DNA from: Bolinopsis microptera
Lineage: Eukaryota > Ctenophora > Tentaculata > Lobata > Bolinopsidae
NCBI RefSeq assembly: GCF_026151205.1
Contig: NC_087076.1
Coordinates: forward strand, 21,384,828-21,448,827
Direction of reading: 5' to 3'
DNA length: 64,000 bases
The position numbers were made by a program, and so were the translations under genes. Below the pieces are notes generated by a model. The model ran no database searches. It was not told the DNA's origin and saw only the letters and a program-made list of their open reading frames with translations. Shown in pieces: positions 10,592-49,740 of the stretch (its first letter is position 1; each line of letters begins with the position of its first letter).

Positions 10592-10600
10592 TGATTAAAG
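10592..10600. repeat. 9-bp target-site duplication, left
   Basis: TGATTAAAG directly precedes the left end (TAGGGCC) of the large palindromic element and is repeated exactly at 20,356-20,364 after its right end (GGCCCTA). Confidence 0.85.
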
Positions 10601-10839
10601 TAGGGCCTGTCGTGATATCATGGATCGCTTAGGTTCCACCAGGATCTGGTAGTCCTCATAATTCTGCGGCCTCTATGTGTCGTCATCTCGCACAACTCCG
10701 AAAAACCGTTGTGAGTTTGGCATGTGAAAATTTGCAGCCCTCCAGACATCGATTGGGTTAACGAGTTGTCGTACGTCACCTAAAGATCGGGTGACAGGGG
10801 GCTGAACAGGCCAGAACCCAATTGATTGGGTCTGAGGTC

Positions 10840-10875
10840 ACGTGATTATGAGCCTGAGGTCACGTGACTATGACG
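10840..10875. promoter_or_regulatory. Paired GGTCACGTGA sites in the subterminal region
   Basis: CTGAGGTCACGTGAttatgagCCTGAGGTCACGTGA places two CACGTG palindromes a short distance apart about 240 bp from the left end. The same pair is in the right arm (about 20,085-20,120) and in the 49.3-kb derivative. Conservation in all three suggests a protein-binding site for mobility, by inference. Confidence 0.4.
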
Positions 10876-11564
10876 TCACCAGAGCTCGTTCTCCGTTTCC
10901 CGCTCTTTGGACCAGGTGAGCTTGCATGCTTGTGAAAGTGGGTGTAAGTACAGCTGTACTGTAGTTACATCCAATTACCCCTAATAGAACGAAGATTTAT
11001 TTTCTGACAGAAAGCTAGAAATTTACCAAAATATCGACTTTGTTCAAAATTTATTTTGATGACCACTCCTGACCTAAAATTGCACGAGAAATCGATTAAA
11101 CTTGGTTTCGGAACTCAACAATGCTTCCTTATGCCTTAAAATCCATTTTTATCGATACAATAAACATTTTGATCCTGTGGATTAATTAGTAACAGGTAAC
11201 AAATGCACAGAAAAAACCATCGCACTTACATTACATTCTTAACGGGTCGATTTCGAGTGACCAATAATCGTCGTGATGATATTTATACGTCATGCGTTCC
11301 TGATCATCATCAGCAATCAAGAGACAGGAGCGGCGATTGCTTTAAATCAACAGTTTACGTTATTTTTGTGAATTCGACCCCTGTTTTAACGGTTATCACA
11401 CTTTGTAATTGAATGTATTGGGGATAGCTTTACAAATAAGAGGACCAGTAAATAAAATTGCCACAAGTGTTTCTCTCACTCACTTTCGATGAGACACAAT
11501 GAAAATTTTTACTTAACCATAAGATTCGGAATTTTTCAACCGTTGAAGAATATCGGAATTTTAT

Positions 11565-11975
11565 AAAATGTAAGTTCAATTTTTACAAAAAATCAACGAA
11601 TCGTATGAAATTCCATTAGCAGTTAGTTCCAGAGTAGGGATCAGAGCAAAACGAAGGAATATAATTTCTTGCGGGAATCATTGAACCTGAAATATTGTCG
11701 ACAGGTTAAAATCTACTAGCAGGAACCCGTCTAACCCCTGAGTGGCGTCAAGACTCAAGAGACTAAATAAATTATTACCTATTTAATTCGCGTTTTTGCG
11801 GAAAATCGTGTTAAAGTTGATGCCGTGGTGTCAGTAAAATGGTACGGATATATATCGGACATATAGTTGTTAAAAGCCTAAATAATAAGTTACATTCACT
11901 TAATATGGTTTATGTTTAGTCATATTTATAACCCATTAATGATGTGATCTGAAATTTAATTAAGCTACAGAAGTA
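11565..11975. other. Left-arm spacer not matched in the right arm
   Basis: This segment differs completely from the corresponding right-arm segment (18,755-19,370), while sequence on both sides is nearly identical between arms. It contains a fragment of the same Helitron family found at 13,781-14,096. No ORF. Confidence 0.7.
11716..11868 (-). mobile_element. Truncated non-autonomous Helitron fragment
   Basis: It starts at CTAGCAGGAACCCGTCTA (the reversed 3' end of the family) and runs through TTTAATTCGCGTTTTTGCGG and GATGCCGTGGTGTCAGTAAA, which match the full copy at 13,781-14,096 in reverse orientation. A middle part is absent and the TC end is not clear. Confidence 0.6.
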
Positions 11976-12444
11976 GTATGTCAGGGATTTTTCAATAGCC
12001 ATTTTGGGAAAAAGTGAGGCACGCATAATGAAAGTAAGCATATTACGTAATGTTACCGGCGGCGACCTTGTAATTAGTGTGATATCATGTTCCATGTGGA
12101 AACTATACTGGATGTAACTTGATTATTACGTCATGTTCATTGCTCACGGTACATTTGTGATCTTATCGTGTAACGATCTTACCAGATTAGAGTGGGTCAA
12201 CGTGAAATAATAATGTACCACAAGCACACTATCCTTACCCTATAGATCACTTGATTGACTCATTCAATCGTTTCTAGTGATTAATTTACACCATCTGTCA
12301 ATATAACTGATTGATAATTTTAAAAGAAGGAAAACAAAATGGTTCGTAACTGGTTGGAAAATAAATGGAAATAAATTTTACGAATAGCATTAGCTGAATA
12401 ATATTTACACGATACACATTAAAATAACTTTTGACTGAATTAAA

Positions 12445-12897
12445 TTAAGGTCTTAGTTTAAATCTATAAATATCAAATCGTACACACACAATTCTTTCCA
12501 CTGTCCATTTTGTTGATGGTCTATGTAGTCGAGCATAGTCAAAGGCGTCTTGTTGCTCAATATCCTCAACAAATTGTCTATAATCAGACGGAGTTTCTAA
12601 TAATCGAGGGAGTGTAAACAGCATCGTGTTGTTTGACGGATGAAAGAACTTTAGTTCATCTGTAGTCCTGTCCTTGAGAATAAATCCAAACGCCACATTA
12701 ACTTTGAACTTCTCGTTGTATTTTGCAACAACTTCTTCAGCTTTTCTCAAGATCGCACTATTATCAGTGGTGATTATAGGAAAATGGTAAACATCTTTCA
12801 ATCGACCCTGTCTCACACTCGTTTTAATTGTGTTCCAACTCCTTTTGTAAATATCCTGATATTCTCCAGGAATCTGTGCAAGTGTGGAGCGGTCCAT
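12445..12897 (-). CDS. Gene B (left copy), 150-aa conserved element protein
   Basis: The intact frame begins MDRSTLAQIPGEYQDIYKRS and ends VRFDIYRFKLRP. It is identical in translation to the right-arm copy at 17,827-18,279. Distinctive parts are KVNVAFGFILKDRTTDELKF, FHPSNNTMLFTLPRLLETPS and a C-terminal RPSTKWTVERIVCVRFDIYR. It is a compact, probably globular alpha/beta protein with no signal peptide, membrane segment or Cys cluster. It lies about 98 bp downstream of gene A in the same direction, so the two may be co-expressed. I do not recognise an annotated domain. Identity of the two copies indicates recent arm homogenisation or duplication. Confidence 0.7.
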   Translation of the reverse strand: MDRSTLAQIPGEYQDIYKRSWNTIKTSVRQGRLKDVYHFPIITTDNSAILRKAEEVVAKYNEKFKVNVAFGFILKDRTTDELKFFHPSNNTMLFTLPRLLETPSDYRQFVEDIEQQDAFDYARLHRPSTKWTVERIVCVRFDIYRFKLRP

Positions 12898-12995
12898 AAC
12901 TAATAATATTGATAGCAGAATATTAATTTTGAAAACCAGTTCCCCAGATGCTTTTATAGTCTTTTGTTCTGGAGGTCAAATATTTTTCATTAATT

Positions 12996-13780
12996 TCAGT
13001 CACTTTGATCCTCAAATTGTGAAATGGAATTATTTTCTAGCGTGCTTTCTGATTCTGACTGATCAATTTCACTAATATTAGAATCCGATGAGTACTGTTC
13101 TTCTTCCGTGTCTGATGCCATTTCAGATTCGGACTGATCAGTCATAGAGTTATTTCCATCAATATCTGATTTCTCTTCTTCAGAATTTATTTCTTGTTTC
13201 CCAGAATCATTACTTCCGTCATCAGATGGTTCAAACAATTCATCAAGATCAGTTTTCATTCGGTCAAACATGTTGACGAGATGACTAAAATTTTCATGTA
13301 TCATTGCTTTTGCCGTTAATTTCGAAGCATTAGATATTTCATTTAACAGCTGGATTTCCTCCTCACTCAGTTTACTTGAGTCTACCGTTTTCAGTATTAA
13401 CTTGAGGACATTACGGAGTTTAGGAATATATGCAGTCACTCCGCCTATATCATTTTCAACAAAAGAGTTCCTTATTTCAATCATATCATCGATAAGATCT
13501 TCGGCTGCCAGTTCGTCAAAATCAACATCAATCTCTTGACCAACGTTTTGGTCGACAGTATTATCCATAGTATCTTGAATATCTCTAATATCATTTTCGT
13601 TTGATTCTACTCTGAGTTTGAGTACTCTGAGTTCATTTGATGGAAGAATGCTGTCCTCATATTTAACAAAGTGAGCTTCATTAGTCACACTGTCATTACT
13701 TTTCATCTCCGCACTCATGTTCCGGACAAGTCTGTCTAATTCATCGACAGTCGATTGCAGAATATTTAGGTCTGCTTTCA
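12996..13780 (-). pseudogene. Gene A (left copy), C-terminal part cut off by a Helitron
   Basis: From MKADLNILQSTVDELDRLVR to the acidic end FEDQSD this matches residues of the intact right-arm gene A. The first ~90 residues are separated from it by the 316-bp Helitron (13,781-14,096), and there is also a 2-bp frameshift at the junction. The fragment keeps an in-frame ATG at its 5' edge, so a truncated 261-residue protein without the zinc finger is conceivable. Confidence 0.75.
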
Positions 13781-14096
13781 TCTTACTATATATAAAGCGA
13801 GACGATATATATATATTTATTTATCCGTGCCATTTTACTGACACCACGGCATCAACTTTAACGCGAATTTCCGCAAAAACCGTAAAAGATATACAACTGA
13901 AACTTTTTTGACTGGGTCAAATGCTTTAATGGCCTTCAAATCAGCATGAAAAAATTAAAAATTGGCCAAGGAATAAGGATTTTAGTGCCCAAAATTTGGA
14001 CTCCCAAGTGGTGTCAAAAACGCGAATTAAATAGGTAATAATTATTTTATTCTCTCGAGCCTAGACACCACTTTAGGGTAGACGGGTTCCTGCTAG
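13781..14096 (+). mobile_element. Non-autonomous Helitron, 316 bp
   Basis: The insert begins TCTTACTATATATAAAG and ends GGGTTCCTGCTAG. Compared with the uninterrupted right arm (TTCA^TTAGTAC), it sits exactly between A and T with no target duplication. A 5'-TC end, CTRR-3' end and AT target are the Helitron hallmarks. It contains no ORF for a Rep-helicase, so it must have been mobilised in trans. The comparison with the other arm gives the boundaries to the base. Confidence 0.85.
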
Positions 14097-14369
14097 TTAG
14101 TACAATGTCCACGTAACTTTATCCTGTAAATAATCGTATCCAGGACTATCTGTTGTGAATACGTTGGCTGCTGGAAGCTTATTCTTAGTAGCGTAATCAG
14201 TACCATACTCGTAGTCGAGACTCACGGAGTCATTGGGTGAACTGTGGACCTTATTTATATTTCTGCTATCTTTCTGTGCCCGGTGATACGAGTAGCGGTG
14301 GGTGCGAAGACTTTTAGAATTTTTGTACTGCCTTCCACAACTATCACATGAATATGATTTACTGCTCAT
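14097..14369 (-). pseudogene. Gene A (left copy), N-terminal zinc-finger part
   Basis: It encodes MSSKSYSCDSCGRQYKNSKS and continues to LQDKVT, as in the right arm. It then reads WTLY because of a 2-bp insertion (GTGG versus GG) and runs into the Helitron. The C2H2 finger itself is intact. This copy cannot make the full protein. Confidence 0.75.
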
Positions 14370-14419
14370 TTGCAAGCTAGATGAAGAACTATTGAATTCA
14401 TATCAGCTGTTTAAAGTCC

Positions 14420-14427
14420 CTTATATA
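14420..14427 (-). promoter_or_regulatory. TATA-box candidate for left gene A
   Basis: TATATAAG on the minus strand lies about 50 bp upstream of the ATG of left gene A, mirrored exactly in the right arm at 16,615-16,622. Confidence 0.5.
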
Positions 14428-14512
14428 CCTCTCAGATGAGAGTGACATTAGTTGAAAGAATTAGTCGCATCGTTATTATAATACTAACTACAATAATACA
14501 ACGAAAGTTGTA

Positions 14513-15252
14513 TTATCAATAATGACGGGTATTAATGACGGGTACTGCTAATAATGACAGGTATTATCAATAATGACTGGTTTAGTGAGAGGTATTATTA
14601 TTAATGACCGGTATTATTATTAGTGACGGGTACCATAATTAATAATGACGGGTATTATTATTAGTGACGGGTATTGTTATAAATGACGGATATCATTATT
14701 AATGACGGATATCATTATTAATGACGGGTATTATTATTATTAATAATGACGGGTATTATTATTAATGGCGGGTATTATTATTAATAATGATGGGTATTAT
14801 TATTAATGACAGAATAATGACGGATATTATTATTAATGACGGGTATTATTATTAATGACAGGTATTATCAATGATAACGGGTATTATTATTATTAGTGAC
14901 GGGTATTATTATTAATGACGGGTATTATTATCATTAATGAAACTAATGACGGGTATTATTATTAATGACGGGTATTATTATTATTAATGACGGGTATTAT
15001 CATTATTAATGACGGGTATTATCATTATTAATGACGGGTATTATTAATGACGGGTATTATTATCATTAATGAAATTAATGACGGATATTATTATTAATGA
15101 CGGGTATTATTATTAATGACGAGTATTATTATTAATGACGGGTATTATTATTAATGACGGGTATTATTATTAATGACGGGTATTATTATTATTAGTGACG
15201 GGTATTATTATTATTAGTGACGGGTATTATTATTATTAATGACGGTTATTAT
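14513..15252. repeat. Central satellite, left block
   Basis: Dozens of units of TTATTATTAATGACGGGTA with variable numbers of TTA steps fill the inner end of the left arm. Units continue at 15,696-15,908 after the inserted block, then appear in reverse orientation in the right arm. Confidence 0.9.
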
Positions 15253-15695
15253 AAAGGGTCTCAATAAGAGGTCTCGACTGCCTAGGCGTCAAACCTTGGC
15301 AGTCGGTAGTTTTCCTCTGGCCCGGGATCAGCTGACCCTAGGGACCAGAGGGTAAAGGTGTAGAGACTATGTGTATCTACAAATCTTTCGAGGTTGTTTT
15401 TACAAGAGACAGGGCTTGCTACGCAAGGGAAGAAAACCGGGAGAAACAATCACAAATTATACAAATAAATATTATAAAACCTAGCAAAAAGAAATTCAAA
15501 CAATCCTACACTACTACAAATGTTTATTACATACTACAGTGTAATACACGATAAATAAATGCTGTATAATCAAGAAACAGGGCTTGCAGGGCAAGGGACG
15601 GAACACAGGAACTGGTTACAGAGTGTATAAAACAGTGATTCAGCAAGTACCCATTGGGTATTGCTGAATCTGACCCACAAAATACCACAATAACA
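15253..15695. mobile_element. 443-bp insertion in the central satellite, unidentified
   Basis: Unrelated sequence is flanked on both sides by ACGGTTATTAT (15,242-15,252 and 15,696-15,706). It is GC-richer at its left end, with short inverted repeats (GACTGCC...GGCAGTC and TCTGG...CCAGA), and contains two related segments, GACAGGGCTTGCTACGCAAG and AAACAGGGCTTGCAGGGCAA. No clear A/B box, poly-A or ORF. A retroposed short element is possible. The flanking duplication could partly reflect the satellite itself. Confidence 0.5.
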
Positions 15696-15908
15696 ACGGT
15701 TATTATTATTATTAATGACGGGTAATATTATTATTAATGACGGGTATTATTATTATTAATGACGGGTATTATTATTAATGACGGGTATTATTATTAATAA
15801 CGGGTATTATTATTAATGACGGGTATTATTATTATTAATGACGGGTATTATTATTAATGACGGGTATTATTATTAATGCGGGACGGGTATTATTATTATT
15901 AATGACGG

Positions 15909-16535
15909 AATGATAAAACCGTCATTATTAATAATGACACCCGTCATTAATAATGACACCCGTCATTAATAATAATACCCATCATTAATAATGATATCCG
16001 TCATTAATTTCATTAATGATAATAATACCAGTCATTAATAATACCCGTCATTAATAATGATAATACCCGTCATTAATAATAATACCCGTCATTAATAATA
16101 ATAATACCCGTCATTAATAATAATACCCGTCATTAGTTTCATTTCACTAATAATAATAATACCGTCATCATTGATAATACCTGTCATTAATAATAATACT
16201 CGTCATTAATAATAATATCCGTCATTATTCTGTCATTAATAATAATACCCATCATTATTAATAATAATACCCGCCATTAATAATAATACCCGTCATTATT
16301 AATAATAATAATACCAGTCATTAATAATGATATCCGTCATTAATAATGATATCCGTCATTTATAACAATACCCGTCACTAATAATAATACCCGTCATTAT
16401 TAATTATGGTACCCGTCACTAATAATAATACCGGTCATTAATAATAATACCTCTCACTAAACCAGTCATTATTGATAATACCTGTCATTATTAGCAGTAC
16501 CCGTCATTAATACCCGTCATTATTGATAATACAAC
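15909..16535. repeat. Central satellite, right block (reversed orientation)
   Basis: Units now read TACCCGTCATTAATAATAA, the reverse complement of the left block. The switch of orientation near 15,905-15,915 marks the axis of the palindrome. Confidence 0.9.
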
Positions 16536-16614
16536 TTTCGTTGTATTATTGTAGTTAGTATTATAATAACGATGCGACTAATTCTTTCAACTAATGTCAC
16601 TCTCATCTGAGAGG

Positions 16615-16622
16615 TATATAAG
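16615..16622 (+). promoter_or_regulatory. TATA-box candidate for right gene A
   Basis: GAGGTATATAAGGGACTTTA gives a TATATAAG about 50 bp upstream of the gene A ATG at 16,673, a normal distance for a TATA promoter with a short leader. Confidence 0.55.
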
Positions 16623-16672
16623 GGACTTTAAACAGCTGATATGAATTCAATAGGTCTTCATCTAGCTTGCAA

Positions 16673-17728
16673 ATGAGCAGTAAATCATATTCATGTGATA
16701 GTTGTGGAAGGCAGTACAAAAATTCTAAAAGTCTTCGCACCCACCGCTACTCGTATCACCGGGCACAGAAAGATAGCAGAAATATAAATAAGGTCCACAG
16801 TTCACCCAATGACTCCGTGAGTCTCGACTACGAGTATGGTACTGATTACGCTACTAAGAATAAGCTTCCAGCAGCCAACGTATTCACAACAGATAGTCCT
16901 GGATACGATTATTTACAGGATAAAGTTACGGACATTGTACTAATGAAAGCAGACCTAAATATTCTGCAATCGACTGTCGATGAATTAGACAGACTTGTCC
17001 GGAACATGAGTGCGGAGATGAAAAGTAATGACAGTGTGACTAATGAAGCTCACTTTGTTAAATATGAGGACAGCATTCTTCCATCAAATGAACTCAGAGT
17101 ACTCAAACTCAGAGTAGAATCAAACGAAAATGATATTAGAGATATTCAAGATACTATGGATAATACTGTCGACCAAAACGTTGGTCAAGAGATTGATGTT
17201 GATTTTGACGAACTGGCAGCCGAAGATCTTATCGATGATATGATTGAAATAAGGAACTCTTTTGTTGAAAATGATATAGGCGGAGTGACTGCATATATTC
17301 CTAAACTCCGTAATGTCCTCAAGTTAATACTGAAAACGGTGGACTCAAGTAAACTGAGTGAGGAGGAAATCCAGCTGTTAAATGAAATATCTAATGCTTC
17401 GAAATTAACGGCAAAAGCAATGATACATGAAAATTTTAGTCATCTCGTCAACATGTTTGACCGAATGAAAACTGATCTTGATGAATTGTTTGAACCATCT
17501 GATGACGGAAGTAATGATTCTGGGAAACAAGAAATAAATTCTGAAGAAGAGAAATCAGATATTGATGGAAATAACTCTATGACTGATCAGTCCGAATCTG
17601 AAATGGCATCAGACACGGAAGAAGAACAGTACTCATCGGATTCTAATATTAGTGAAATTGATCAGTCAGAATCAGAAAGCACGCTAGAAAATAATTCCAT
17701 TTCACAATTTGAGGATCAAAGTGACTGA
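16673..17728 (+). CDS. Gene A (right copy), acidic C2H2 zinc-finger protein, ~351 aa
   Basis: I chose the ATG giving MSSKSYSCDSCGRQYKNSKS; a TTG two codons upstream is not needed. Residues ~8-29 form one classical C2H2 finger (C-x2-C-x12-H-x4-H), suggesting DNA binding. Residues ~95-125 (ILQSTVDELDRLVRNM) and later segments are coiled-coil-like. A helical middle region includes IGGVTAYIPKLRNVLKLILK. The last ~80 residues are highly acidic and Ser-rich (SESEMASDTEEEQYSSDSN). The gene is intronless, with a TATA box upstream and gene B 98 bp downstream. The role is unknown. A structural or DNA-binding accessory factor of the element is the simplest inference; no catalytic motif is visible. Confidence 0.75.
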   Translation: MSSKSYSCDSCGRQYKNSKSLRTHRYSYHRAQKDSRNINKVHSSPNDSVSLDYEYGTDYATKNKLPAANVFTTDSPGYDYLQDKVTDIVLMKADLNILQSTVDELDRLVRNMSAEMKSNDSVTNEAHFVKYEDSILPSNELRVLKLRVESNENDIRDIQDTMDNTVDQNVGQEIDVDFDELAAEDLIDDMIEIRNSFVENDIGGVTAYIPKLRNVLKLILKTVDSSKLSEEEIQLLNEISNASKLTAKAMIHENFSHLVNMFDRMKTDLDELFEPSDDGSNDSGKQEINSEEEKSDIDGNNSMTDQSESEMASDTEEEQYSSDSNISEIDQSESESTLENNSISQFEDQSD

Positions 17729-17826
17729 AATTAATGAAAAATATTTGACCTCCAGAACAAAAGACTATAAAAGCATCTGGGGAACTGGTTTTCAAAATTA
17801 ATATTCTGCTATCAATATTATTAGTT

Positions 17827-18279
17827 ATGGACCGTTCCACACTTGCACAGATTCCTGGAGAATATCAGGATATTTACAAAAGGAGTTGGAACACAATTAA
17901 AACGAGTGTGAGACAGGGTCGATTGAAAGATGTTTACCATTTTCCTATAATCACCACTGATAATAGTGCGATCTTGAGAAAAGCTGAAGAAGTTGTTGCA
18001 AAATACAACGAGAAGTTCAAAGTTAATGTGGCGTTTGGATTTATTCTCAAGGACAGGACTACAGATGAACTAAAGTTCTTTCATCCGTCAAACAACACGA
18101 TGCTGTTTACACTCCCTCGATTATTAGAAACTCCGTCTGATTATAGACAATTTGTTGAGGATATTGAGCAACAAGACGCCTTTGACTATGCTCGACTACA
18201 TAGACCATCAACAAAATGGACAGTGGAAAGAATTGTGTGTGTACGATTTGATATTTATAGATTTAAACTAAGACCTTAA
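17827..18279 (+). CDS. Gene B (right copy), 150-aa conserved element protein
   Basis: This intact, intronless frame follows gene A by 98 bp in the same direction and encodes the same protein as the left copy (12,445-12,897), starting MDRSTLAQIPGEYQDIYKRS. Both copies are free of stops. The ordered motifs (VAFGFILKDRTTDELKFFHP, LPRLLETPSDYRQFVEDIEQ, RPSTKWTVERIVCVRFDIYR) make it a good probe for relatives. No nuclease or recombinase triad is evident. Function unknown. Confidence 0.75.
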   Translation: MDRSTLAQIPGEYQDIYKRSWNTIKTSVRQGRLKDVYHFPIITTDNSAILRKAEEVVAKYNEKFKVNVAFGFILKDRTTDELKFFHPSNNTMLFTLPRLLETPSDYRQFVEDIEQQDAFDYARLHRPSTKWTVERIVCVRFDIYRFKLRP

Positions 18280-18754
18280 TTTAATTCAGTCAAAAGTTAT
18301 TTTAATGTGTATCGTGTAAATATTATTCAGCTAATGCTATTCGTAAAATTTATTTCCATTTATTTTCCAACCAGTTACGAACCATTTTGTTTTCCTTCTT
18401 TTAAAATTATCAATCAGTTATATTGACAGATGGTGTAAATTAATCACTAGAAACGATTGAATGAGTCAATCAAGTGATCTATAGGGTAAGGATAGTGTGC
18501 TTGTGGTACATTATTATTTCACGTTGACCCACTCTAATCTGGTAAGATCGTTACACGATAAGATCACAAATGTACCGTGAGCAATGAACATGACGTAATA
18601 ATCAAGTTACATCCAGTTTAGTTTCCACATGGAACATGATATCACACTAATTACAAGGTCGCCGCCGGTAACATTACGTAATATGCTTACTTTCATTATG
18701 CGTGCCTCACTTTTTCTCAAAATGGCTATTGAAAAATCCCTGACATACTACTTA

Positions 18755-19370
18755 CAGACGTTTTTTGTGACGTAAACTAGAACATACACTCAAACTAGAA
18801 CATTCTAAAAGATCGATTATTACGCTAAAACCCTGCTGTAAACAGCTTACCAAATTGGCCACTGTGTATGTGCTTGTAGTCATATTATATATATGTGTGA
18901 AAAGATGCCGATTATACTTCCAGATTATTTCTCGAATAAATTCATAAGTTACTTTATAAAATAAATCATTATATTATTTTTAAAAGTAGTTGTCTTTTCC
19001 ATTTATATTGTACCAATCGCCGACTCACTTTTTCCAATTAGCCTCACCAGTGCAACGTGAATTTTATTAGAAATCGTTGGATTTGCAAAGTGCTAGTAAC
19101 AATCGGGGATCGGATGGCCACATTTTTAAATTCAAAAAATTCCTAGGTAGTAGGTTTACGAAAATTGAAAAAACAGACACTTAAAAAAGCTGCCCAACTG
19201 AAATTGCACAAATTGCAATACAATACAAAGATATCATTGGAAATAACCGTCCCGTCATTCTAACAACTCATTCCTCATTTAACTGCCACCTAACACAAGG
19301 TTTTTATACATATAACTGATAAGACAATTGCAGCGGTATCATTCACAATTTTTCGATTAACCGTTCAAAG
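18755..19370. other. Right-arm spacer not matched in the left arm
   Basis: About 610 bp here replace the 410-bp spacer of the left arm between otherwise matching flanks. It is AT-rich with no ORF or recognised repeat. Either one arm carries an old insertion and deletion, or the arms came from two variants of the element. Confidence 0.65.
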
Positions 19371-20355
19371 GTTGATAAGTGTGATTAGATTTTATAAAAT
19401 TCCGATTTTCTTTAGCGTTTAAAAAAATTCCGAATCTTATGGAAGTAAGAATTTCCATTGTGTCTTTTCGAAAGTGAGTGAGAGAAACACTTGTGGCAAT
19501 TTTATTTACTGGTCCTCTTATTTGTAAAGCTATCCCCAATACATTCAATTACAAACTGTGATAACCGTTAAAACAGGGGTCGAATTCACAAAAATAACGT
19601 AAACCGTTGATTTAAAGCAATCGCTGCTCCTGTCTCTTGATTGCTGATGATGATCAGGAACGCATGACGTATAAATATCATCACGACGATTATTGGTCAC
19701 TCGAAATTGACCCGTTAAGAATGTAATGTAAGTGCGATGGTTTTTTCTGTGCATTTGTTACCTGTTACTAATTAATCCACAGGATCAAAATGTTATTGTA
19801 TCGATAAAAATGGATTTTAAGGCATAAGGAAGCATTGTTGAGTTCCGAAACCAAGTTTAATCGATTTCTCGTGCAATTTTAGGTCAGGAGTGGTCATCAA
19901 AATAAATTTTGAACAAAGTCGATATTTTGGTAAATTTCTAGCTTTCTGTCAGAAAATAAATCTTCGTTCTATTAGGGGTAATTGGATGTAACTACAGTAC
20001 AGCTGTACTTACACCCACTTTCACAAGCATGCAAGCTCACCTGGTCCAAAGAGCGGGAAACGGAGAACGAGCTCTGGTGACGTCATAGTCATGTGACCTC
20101 AGGCTCATAATCACGTGACCTCAGACCCAATCAATTGGGGTCTGGCCTGTTCAGCCCCCTGTCACCCGATCTTGAGGTGACGTACGACAACTCGTTAACC
20201 CAATCGATGTCTGGAGGGCTGCAAATTTTCACATACCAAACTCACAACGGTTTTTCGGAGTTGTGCGAGATGACGACACATAGAGGCCGCAGAATTATGA
20301 GGACTACCAGATCCTGGTGGAACCTAAGCGATCCATGATATCACGACAGGCCCTA

Positions 20356-20364
20356 TGATTAAAG
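20356..20364. repeat. 9-bp target-site duplication, right
   Basis: TGATTAAAG immediately after GGCCCTA, identical to 10,592-10,600. Confidence 0.85.
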
Positions 20365-22049: not shown

Positions 22050-23733
22050 CCGAAAATGGTGAGAATGAGAAGAGAGTAGCAGAGGCTGAGACAATTCTAG
22101 AGGAACAGAAGAAAGTAGCAGAAGCTGAAAGAGTTCTAGAGGAACAGAAGAAAGTAGCAGAAGCTGAGAGAGTTTTAGAGGAGCAGAAGAGAGTAGCAGA
22201 AGCTGAGCGTGTTCTAGAGGAGCAGAAGAGAGTAGCAGAAGCTGAGCGTGTTCTAGAGGAACAGAAGAGAGTAGCAGAAGCTGAGGGAGCTCTAGAGGAG
22301 CAGAAGAGAGTAGCAGAAGCTGAGAGAGTTCTAGAGGAGCATAAGAGAGTTCTAGAGGAGCAGAAGAGAGTAGCAGAAGCTGAGCGTGTTCTAGAGGAAC
22401 AGAAGAGAGTAGCAGAAGCTGAGAGAGCTCTAGAGGAACAGAAGAGAGTAGCAGAAGCTGAGAGAGTTCTAGAGGAGCAGAAGAGAGTAGCAGAAGCTGA
22501 GCGTGTTCTAGAGGAACAGAAGAGAGTAGCAGAAGCTGAGAGAGCTCTAGAGGAACAGAAGAGAGTAGCAGAAGCTGAGAGAGTTCTAGAGGAACAGAAG
22601 AGAGTAGCAGAAGCTGAGAGAGTTTTAGAGGAGCACTGAGCAGAAGAGAGTAGCAGAAGCTGAGCGTATTCTAGAGGAGCATAAGAGAGTAGCAGAAGCT
22701 GAGAGAGTTCTAGAGGAGCATAAGAGAGTAGCAGAAGCTGAGCGTATTCTAGCTTTCTAGAGGAGCAGAAGAGAGTAGCAGAAGCTGAGAGAGTTCTAGA
22801 GGAGCATAAGAGAGTAGCAGAAGCTGAGAGAGTTCTAGAGGAGCAGAAGAAGGTAGCAGAAGCTAAGCGTATTCTAGAAGAGCAGAAGAGAGTAGCAGAA
22901 GCTGAGAGAGTTCTAGAGGAGCATAAGAGACTAGCAGAAGCTGAGAGAGTTCTAGAGGTGCAGAAGAGAGTAGCAGATGCTGAGAGAGTTCTAGAGGAAC
23001 AGAAGAGAGTAGCAGAAGCTGAGAGAGTTCTAGAGGAGCAGAAGAGAGTAGCAGAAGCTGAGAGAGTTCTAGAGGAACAGAAGAAAGTAGCAGAAGCTGA
23101 GAGAGTTCTAGAGGAACAGAAGAAAGTAGCAGAAGCTGAGAGAGTTTTAGAGGAGCAGAAGAGAGTAGCAGAAGCTGAGCGTGTTCTAGAGGAACAGAAG
23201 AGAGTAGCAGAAGCTGAGAGAGTTTTAGAGGAGCAGAAGAGAGTAGCAGAAGCTGAGCGTATTCTAGAGGAGCAGAAGAGAGTAGCAGAAGCTGAAAGAG
23301 TTCTAGAGGAGCATAAGAGAGTAGCAGAAGCTGAGCGTATTCTAGAAGAGCAGAAGAGAGTAGCAGAAGCTGAGAGAGTTCTATAGGAGCAGAAGAGAGT
23401 AGCAGAAGCTGAGAGAGTTCTAGAGGAGCAGAAGAGACTAGCAGAAGCTGAGAGAGTTCTAGAGGAACAGAAGAGACTAGCAGAAGCTGAGAGAGTTCTA
23501 GAAGAACAGAAGAGAGTAGCAGAAGCTGAGCATATTCTAGAGGAACAGAAGAGAGTAGCAGAAGCTGAGAGAGTTCTAGAGGAGAAGAAGAGAGTAGCAG
23601 AAGCTGAGCGTATTCTAGAGGAACAGAAGAGAGTAGCAGAAGCTGAGAGAGTTCTAGAGGAGCATAAGAGAGAAGCAGAAGCTGAGAGAGTTCTAGAGGA
23701 ACAGAAGAGAGTAGCAGAAGATCTAGGATTGTA
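22050..23733 (+). pseudogene. 39-bp (13-residue) coiled-coil repeat gene, interrupted
   Basis: About 42 units encode AERVLEEQKRVAE on the plus strand. The frame opens after a possible acceptor (CGCACTTAG) with an NTENGENEKRVAE lead-in and closes with VAEDLGL and TAA. It would be a long charged alpha-helical rod. Three faults break it: a 7-bp insertion with TGA near 22,636, an 8-bp insertion near 22,752 (the two sum to 15, restoring frame), and a TAG near 23,384 (CTAGAG to CTATAG). The opposite strand is open over 365 codons, but only because of the repeat. It could be a decayed gene or a repeat array with assembly errors. Confidence 0.6.
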
Positions 23734-49286: not shown

Positions 49287-49740
49287 TAGGGCCTGTCGTG
49301 ATATCATGGATCGCTTAGGTTCCACCAGGATCTGGTAGTTCTCATAATTCTGCGGCCTCTATGTATCGTCATCTCGTACAACTCTTTAAGAATCTTAGGG
49401 ATTTGGCATGTGAAAATTTGCAGCCTTCCAGACATTGATTGGGTTAACGAGGTGTCGTACGTCACCTCAAGATCGGGTGACAGGGGGCTGACCAGGCCAG
49501 AACCCAATTGATTGGGTCTGAGGTCACGTGATTATGAGCCTGAGGTCACGTGACTGAGATGACGTACGACACCTCGTTAACCCAATCAATGTCTGGAAGG
49601 CTGCAAATTTCCACATGCCAAATCCCTTTAAAGATTCTTAAAGAGTTGTACGAGATGACGATACATAGAGGCCGCAGAATTATGAGGACTACCAGATCCT
49701 GGTGGAACCTAAGCGATCCATGATATCACGACAGGTCCTC
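49287..49740. mobile_element. 454-bp foldback derivative of the palindromic element
   Basis: It begins TAGGGCCTGTCGTGATATCA and ends GATATCACGACAGGTCCT, the same termini as the 10.6-20.4 kb element. The arms of about 180 bp are inverted and the centre keeps the doubled GGTCACGTGA motif. It has no gene. It is a deletion product that can serve as a MITE. A TSD was not found and the right tip has two changes. Confidence 0.85.

Follow-up and report, generated by a model that had tools for sequence, protein, structure and literature searches.

An apparent Polinton-derived palindrome nested within a second transposon in the ctenophore Bolinopsis microptera

Results

Two nested elements in place of one palindromic transposon

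The structure analysed here lies in a 64,000-nt stretch of Bolinopsis microptera DNA (the window; feature coordinates count from its first letter), in which an initial annotation had described a 9.76-kb palindromic transposable element carrying two copies of a two-gene cassette, A and B. We found that this apparent transposon is two nested elements, an inner palindrome within an outer transposon. Judged from its sequence, the inner palindrome is a non-autonomous Polinton derivative, because its terminal repeat is common to longer elements that bear a PolB-type polymerase, and the A/B cassette belongs to this palindrome and not to the outer element.

The outer boundaries are exact, reading TGATTAAAG / TAGGGCCTGTCG ... 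CGACAGGCCCTA / TGATTAAAG, and the 9-bp target site duplication (TSD) directly abuts both TAGGGCCTGTCG ends, just as had been annotated. Long inverted arms are also present, but they are not the continuous arms of about 4.6 kb previously proposed: inverted-repeat analysis resolved two nested sets, an outer one (10601-11163/19793-20355, 99%; 11163-11514/19443-19794, 98%) and an inner one (11971-13781/16943-18753, 100% after rounding; 14112-14880/16162-16930, 99%), kept apart by non-complementary outer sequence (~11515-11970 and ~18754-19442). The inner boundaries read TACAGA / AGTAGTATGTCAGGG ... CCCTGACATACTACT / TACAGA. Once positions 11972-18752 and one TACAGA are removed, 2,968 bp of the outer element remain, and the empty site is intact in two other outer copies, L002 (at C9; 98.7% of 77 columns) and L003 (at C6; 97.4% of 78). 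The inner TSD and these empty sites therefore indicate that a 6,781-bp element was inserted into a 3-kb element, and the description of the whole as one mobile unit had to be abandoned. An assembly artefact was considered and rejected, since each palindrome has two different outer flanks that nevertheless carry one and the same 6-bp TSD, a combination not expected of a false fold-back.

Relationship of the inner palindrome to Polintons

The inner element begins and ends with the (AGT)2 ... (ACT)2 motif (AGTAGTATG ... CATACTACT); AGTAGT//ACTACT ends with 6-bp TSDs are given, in the excerpts of PMC8097293 used here, as the commonest pattern of vertebrate Mavericks. Its terminal ~0.3 kb recurs at the termini of longer elements at C11, C9 and C13:9.18 Mb, all of which contain a PolB-type frame of 718-745 aa. 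The repeat is found at both ends of the C11 element (20.70-20.71 Mb; TSD AATACC) and of the C9 element (2.453-2.466 Mb; TSD CAGCCT, if the left end is taken without one AGT); the two ends of the C13:9.18 element (TSD ACTGTA) have 292 bp and 75 bp of it. A and B are located at the opposite end from polB in the C9 and C11 elements, with satellite between; neither gene was seen within the 10-kb locus at C13:9.18. As a separate observation, the left end of the C9 element (L047, position 5317; C9:2.453 Mb) seemingly lacks one of its two AGT triplets and retains the TSD; a slip during jumping-back initiation might have removed the triplet.

The polymerase frames combine N-terminal zinc-finger-like motifs, a B-like domain, a CFFR ... 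HFSF region, which we read as the vOTU domain described in the excerpts of PMC11071308, and [FY]DIE, and further exons carry N-S-V/F-Y-G and DSLY motifs. No Pfam PolB model matched these frames, so that the PolB name rests on architecture and motifs, and when the polymerase alignment was searched against PDB sequences, 16 matches resulted, mostly zinc fingers. Integrase or capsid models had no match among the tested frames of the C9 and C11 elements, the former of which contains an inserted reverse-transcriptase element. Full-size Polintons are present in the genome: L040 and L044 encode an rve integrase (E 2e-8 and 3e-11), a weakly matching P-loop ATPase and a free B of their own, and L044 also an adenovirus-type protease (1e-4), the IS481-, IS3- and IS30-type matches obtained with NCBIfam being the integrase of L044. 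Beyond the PolB element at C2 lies a second satellite, inverted and accompanied by part of A; a truncated terminal stretch directly precedes this satellite, which suggests the fusion of two elements.

No polB, rve integrase, packaging ATPase or capsid gene was found in the inner element, whose open frames are A, B and short frames, and neither A nor B matched the polB, rve, packaging ATPase or capsid models of Pfam. Because it has none of these genes of its own, we call it a non-autonomous derivative and not a Polinton.

Gene B resembles the terminal protein domain of Polinton polymerases

The profile-profile search that had been suggested for the two proteins aligned B with the N-terminal terminal protein (TP) domain of Polinton-type polymerases (hhalign probability 99.4, E 3.1e-21, 140 columns). 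On this similarity, B is a free-standing homologue of what has been described as the terminal protein of Polinton polymerases, a domain that we assigned as D1 (TP) from the same excerpts of PMC11071308 and from its position before the CFFR (vOTU-like) region. The proposal that A and B form a novel mobilisation or replication system survives in so far as B is homologous to this domain; the TAGGGCCTGTCG element is not mobilised by these genes, and the claim to novelty falls, since B matches a domain of a known element. The predicted fold of B may resemble the little finger (LF/PAD) of Y-polymerases, a resemblance presented in those excerpts as a signature of PRD1-like TPs; a second Foldseek look took in top-ranked chains only, so that absence of a fold there carries no meaning. 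An RPST loop at residues 126-129, between a helix (115-125) and a strand (131-144), is invariant in 10/10 aligned B rows, several of them near-identical, and its site matches the location of the priming residue in PRD1 and adenovirus TPs (PMC11071308, excerpts). A scan of IMG/VR with the B alignment gave 58 pattern matches and 0 relatives, and NCBIfam gave nothing for B or A.

The ratio of non-synonymous to synonymous substitution rates (dN/dS) of B was 0.04-0.35 in 12 of the 13 defined pairs (the remaining pair, with 8 changes, gave 0.79, and two further pairs were saturated), and that of A was 0.32-0.63 in 8 pairs, one more being saturated. By these values, both genes were under constraint, at least in the parental elements.

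Palindromes recur in the genome with near-identical arms

Among 59 B matches in the genome, 20 form ten (-)/(+) pairs within 12 kb. Seven pairs belong to the family of the window (family 1: C5:21.40, C13:10.78, C7:10.10, C13:16.16, C13:13.63, C15:0.07-0.08 and C8:3.42) and three to a family 2 (C5:19.15, C7:18.81 and C6:6.60), whose B is 58% identical to that of the window family. A further opposite-strand pair within 16 kb (C10:15.69/15.70) does not consist of two B arms: one member is a polymerase-type match and the other, facing it, a broken B. No pairing within 16 kb was found among 17 polymerase-type matches (open frame of at least 240 aa), two such matches lying on opposite strands 26 kb apart (C9:11.08/11.10), nor was an intact PolB element flanked by two A/B arms found among the loci read. 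Only the A/B end was seen doubled, never the PolB end; this may reflect size, the place of the satellite in the element, or selection favouring the A/B end. In adenovirus, the packaging domain lies near the left end, according to the part of PMC5033970 used here.

The 6-bp TSD is exact at 7 of the 8 palindromes with both ends readable and agrees in 5/6 bases at C6 (the C13:13.63 copy is without one end, and the far end of C8 falls outside the reading). Within a copy, the two arms are 99.7-100% identical in seven pairs and 99.1% at C15, two copies being set aside, L024 for poor alignment and L017 for its broken end (99.3% identity across 1,204 aligned bases); between copies, family 1 spans 89.6-99.0% identity and family 2 94.9-99.4%. 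In trees, four pairs of family 1 and two of family 2 have their two arms as sisters with bootstrap values of 99-100%, and the remaining family 2 pair has 84%. C13:16.16 and C13:13.63 are partial exceptions to the arms being copied from one strand, one arm of C13:16.16 grouping with an arm of C13:13.63 (82%) inside a 100% clade of the three. At C6 both copies of B carry a stop, common to the two arms. The near-identical sister arms, together with this common stop, point to one arm having been, as a rule, copied from or homogenised with the other after the lineage's own changes had arisen. We also noted that one flank of the C13:13.63 palindrome recurs, inverted, beside the C13:16.16 palindrome, as though a segmental duplication had occurred.

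The satellite runs in a single orientation in the C11 and C9 PolB elements (35/35 and 20/20 motif hits) and reverses once in 5/5 palindrome cores read (window, C7:10.10, C13:16.16, C7:18.81 and C8:3.42), as counted over runs of at least 2 hits. A perfect stem of 87 bp closed by a 4-base loop forms the turn at C13:16.16; the turn is blurred in the other four cores. Extra satellite units are often present in one arm, as expected if a folded 3' end annealed some units back, and a change in array length would give the same. A self-complementary satellite as the general cause of the palindromes was rejected, an excess of hairpins being found in family 2 (41 short hairpins versus at most 4 in 100 shuffles) and not in family 1 (7 hairpins versus a shuffle mean of 2.6 and maximum of 15; 1 versus a mean of 1.2).

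Gene A

The right copy of A encodes a C2H2-like finger, a helical middle and an acidic tail; its structure model is poor (predicted local distance difference test, pLDDT, 49) and its role is perhaps DNA binding. Both A/B cassettes of the window point outward from the core, as annotated, and both copies of B are intact, but the same pair is not complete in each arm: ~0.3 kb of foreign DNA interrupts the left A near 13782-14111, and only the right A is whole. The orientation of A relative to B is reversed between the two families (L026-L032 versus L009-L023), A always adjoining the satellite. A third group of A relatives (27-30% identity) occurs as opposite-strand pairs 1.5-7 kb apart at five loci (C5:18060863/18068045, C11:6784488/6789819, C12:15099124/15104050, C7:1340527/1342000 and C89:5532/7219), possibly a further palindromic family. 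Two different B queries detected no B near these pairs; palindromes may form without B, or B may be too divergent there.

The outer element and other features of the window

The first 26 bases of the outer element had 228 + 210 matches in the 264.7-Mb genome (at most 3 mismatches) and the reversed control 0, so the termini are not a matter of chance. Among the 100 matches listed of these 438 there are 33 +/- pairs, 25 of them no longer than 4.3 kb. The annotation had foreseen such a search for further termini flanked by 9-bp TSDs and for longer relatives with a transposase. Termini were abundant. The 9-bp TSD was perfect in two of the three copies with both flanks (the window and C13:5.87, not C3:8.06), and none of the 88 genomic matches to the MULE transposase (PF10551) fell inside the 33 pairs drawn from the 100 listed termini, the nearest lying 68 kb from a pair's start. 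A 9-bp TSD together with long terminal inverted repeats (TIRs) is a combination that we take to fit MULE-like or foldback elements. The outer element looks, as far as seen, like a non-autonomous long-TIR DNA transposon of foldback type. The alternative originally offered, a passive foldback carrying accessory genes, agrees with this for the outer element, but A and B arrived on another element. A second, short copy (454 bp) with both TAGGGCCTGTCG-family ends and substitutions in the right one lies at 49287-49740.

The coordinates of the nested elements are collected in Table 1. The core is satellite-rich, as annotated, but its left half contains ~0.44 kb unrelated to the satellite (~15253-15695), with GGTTATTAT at both borders, probably a later insertion. 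Positions 11700-11850, in the outer element, and the insert breaking the left A resemble copies of one small repeat, with CTAGCAGGAACCCG-type and ATGCCGTGGTGTCAG-type sequence in common when read by eye. Outside the nested elements, tandem 39-bp and 117-bp units (83-90% matches) at 22068-23720 resemble coiled-coil coding repeats.

Table 1 Features of the nested elements in the window
Feature	Coordinates	Strand	Remark
Outer TSD, left, 9 bp (TGATTAAAG)	10592..10600	.	flank read
Outer element, left part	10601..11971	+	inverted arm 10601-11514; closes with left inner TSD
Inner TSD, left, 6 bp (TACAGA)	11966..11971	.	empty site in L002 and L003
Inner element, palindromic non-autonomous Polinton derivative, 6,781 bp	11972..18752	.	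AGTAGT...ACTACT ends
Gene B, left copy, 150 aa	12445..12897	-	intact
Gene A, left copy, residues 90-351	12999..13784	-	interrupted copy
Foreign insert breaking left A	13782..14111	.	limits approximate
Gene A, left copy, residues 1-93	14091..14369	-	interrupted copy
Satellite, forward	14522..15910	+	broken by ~0.44 kb of unrelated sequence
Satellite, reverse	15911..16530	-	palindrome turn near 15911
Gene A, right copy, 351 aa	16673..17728	+	intact
Gene B, right copy, 150 aa	17827..18279	+	intact
Outer element, right part	18753..20355	-	inverted arm 19443-20355; opens with right inner TSD
Inner TSD, right, 6 bp (TACAGA)	18753..18758	.	
Outer TSD, right, 9 bp (TGATTAAAG)	20356..20364	.	flank read

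Discussion

We consider it probable that the inner element is a fold-back ('snapback') deletion genome of a Polinton which hit the long-TIR outer transposon and was integrated in trans. A parental Polinton would have been under copying by strand displacement when the growing 3' end quit its template inside the satellite lying between polB and gene A; this end would have folded back and copied its own strand outward to the A/B end, yielding a linear molecule that lacked polB and had, on either side, the same terminus with A and B; an integrase from elsewhere would then have integrated this molecule. The fold-back step, replication outside the chromosome and a helper in trans are the parts that we infer. 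As a free-standing homologue of the protein credited with priming Polinton replication, B could prime replication in the palindromes, and the minigenome may thus bring a primer gene with it and depend on other elements for polymerase and integrase. A bolder proposal, that palindromes with TP and zinc-finger genes at each end are a recurring satellite life form parasitising the PolB and integrase of fuller Polintons, we hold to be unlikely. If true, such a symmetric minimal replicon would be the animal-genome counterpart of snapback defective viruses, and a free TP beside a fused one would be an intermediate of the sort expected en route to the adenovirus arrangement.

Differing from the fold-back explanation only in how often the event took place, one or a few palindromic lineages might replicate and transpose as palindromes, their arms homogenised by the replication cycle or by gene conversion, after fold-back had occurred once or a few times long ago. 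Palindromes do outnumber the PolB-bearing copies seen, and closely similar copies occupy separate sites (C7:10.10 and C13:16.16, with 99.0% identity, fall in one clade). We nevertheless find this somewhat unlikely: the palindromes come in two families (B 58% alike, A in opposite orientation), implying at least two origins or a single very old one, PolB-bearing copies fall among palindromes in the trees (with weak support in family 1), and the junctions read differ in sequence and in satellite length. Head-to-head joining of two molecules of one Polinton within the satellite, by recombination or end joining and with no fold-back copying, is improbable in our view. A tandem satellite is a good recombination site and unequal satellite length in the arms would follow naturally, but the 87-bp perfect stem with its 4-base loop speaks against such joining, and arms 99.7-100% alike in 7/8 pairs, with a common stop at C6, would require the joined molecules to be sisters.

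Still less credence is due to the view that the parents were Polintons with very long TIRs holding A, B and satellite, from which palindromes arose by internal deletion of the polB core. The PolB element followed by an inverted second satellite and part of A at C2 fits it, but the truncated terminal stretch before that satellite suggests a fusion, and the C9 and C11 PolB elements have A and B at one end only, their ends having ~0.3 kb in common. A single 9.76-kb palindromic element with A and B as its own cargo or machinery is practically untenable: a 9-bp TSD and long inverted arms do flank the whole, but L002 and L003, with their empty sites, refute it, the inner element has a TSD of its own, and inner-type ends with their own 6-bp TSDs are found at seven other palindromes and three PolB elements. 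Compatible with the fold-back explanation, and conceivable although we tend to doubt it, is that B is a TP homologue no longer engaged in priming, kept as a DNA-binding or regulatory relic, for example as a competitor of the fused TP. The polymerases of the same genome retain a TP-like domain, so that a free B may be redundant, and both B copies at C6 carry a stop; against this, B is constrained in nearly all defined pairs (12/13, dN/dS 0.04-0.35), and RPST is kept in all ten aligned sequences at the site of the PRD1 and adenovirus priming residue (PMC11071308, excerpts).

For genome surveys, these results are a caution that one element nested in another can pass for a single 'palindromic transposon'. 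That Polintons replicate by protein priming has so far been deduced from their genes and ends. The integrated mirror-image deletion genomes resemble a physical record of copying by strand displacement and fold-back, and therefore make the protein-priming model testable in an animal. The excerpts of PMC11071308 propose that the separate TP of adenoviruses split from a fused, Polinton-like ancestor, and the occurrence of a free TP gene alongside a fused one is relevant to that origin. The titles, abstract openings and passages of the open-access papers listed by our searches mention neither a palindromic Polinton nor a free TP gene in such elements, subscription papers and Repbase being outside their scope.

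Several known systems invite comparison. With PRD1-like TPs (PRD1, adenovirus TP and D1 of Polinton pPolB, as described in the excerpts of PMC11071308), B shares the order of helices and strands and, in the loop preceding the last strand, a Ser/Thr next to Pro, and like them it may resemble the little finger of Y-polymerases; it differs in being a free gene beside polymerases that retain their own TP-like domain, and is known here from sequence and predicted fold. The outer element is similar to the MULE-like or foldback class in its ~0.9-kb TIRs, 9-bp TSD and hundreds of termini, but has no detected transposase. The inner element resembles Polintons/Mavericks (adintovirus-like) in its AGTAGT...ACTACT ends, its 6-bp TSD, a terminal repeat found in PolB-bearing elements and a B homologous to the polymerase TP domain, and full-size relatives with integrase, adenovirus-type protease and free B exist in the genome; unlike them, it lacks genes for polB, integrase and capsid, and it closes on both sides with the A/B end. 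Vierula and Bertrand reportedly described, in 1992, a deletion derivative of the kalilo plasmid that forms hairpins, which would likewise be a hairpin derivative of a protein-primed linear replicon, although of a fungal mitochondrial plasmid. The snapback defective genomes of adeno-associated virus (AAV) are, according to the part of PMC8235507 used here, double-stranded mirror-image deletion genomes that retain one parental end, as does the inner element, but they belong to a parvovirus with hairpin-primed replication, whereas the element described here is of a protein-primed type and is integrated in a host genome. By analogy, the AAV snapback genomes and the kalilo hairpin derivative are precedents, in other replicons, for the palindrome in the window.

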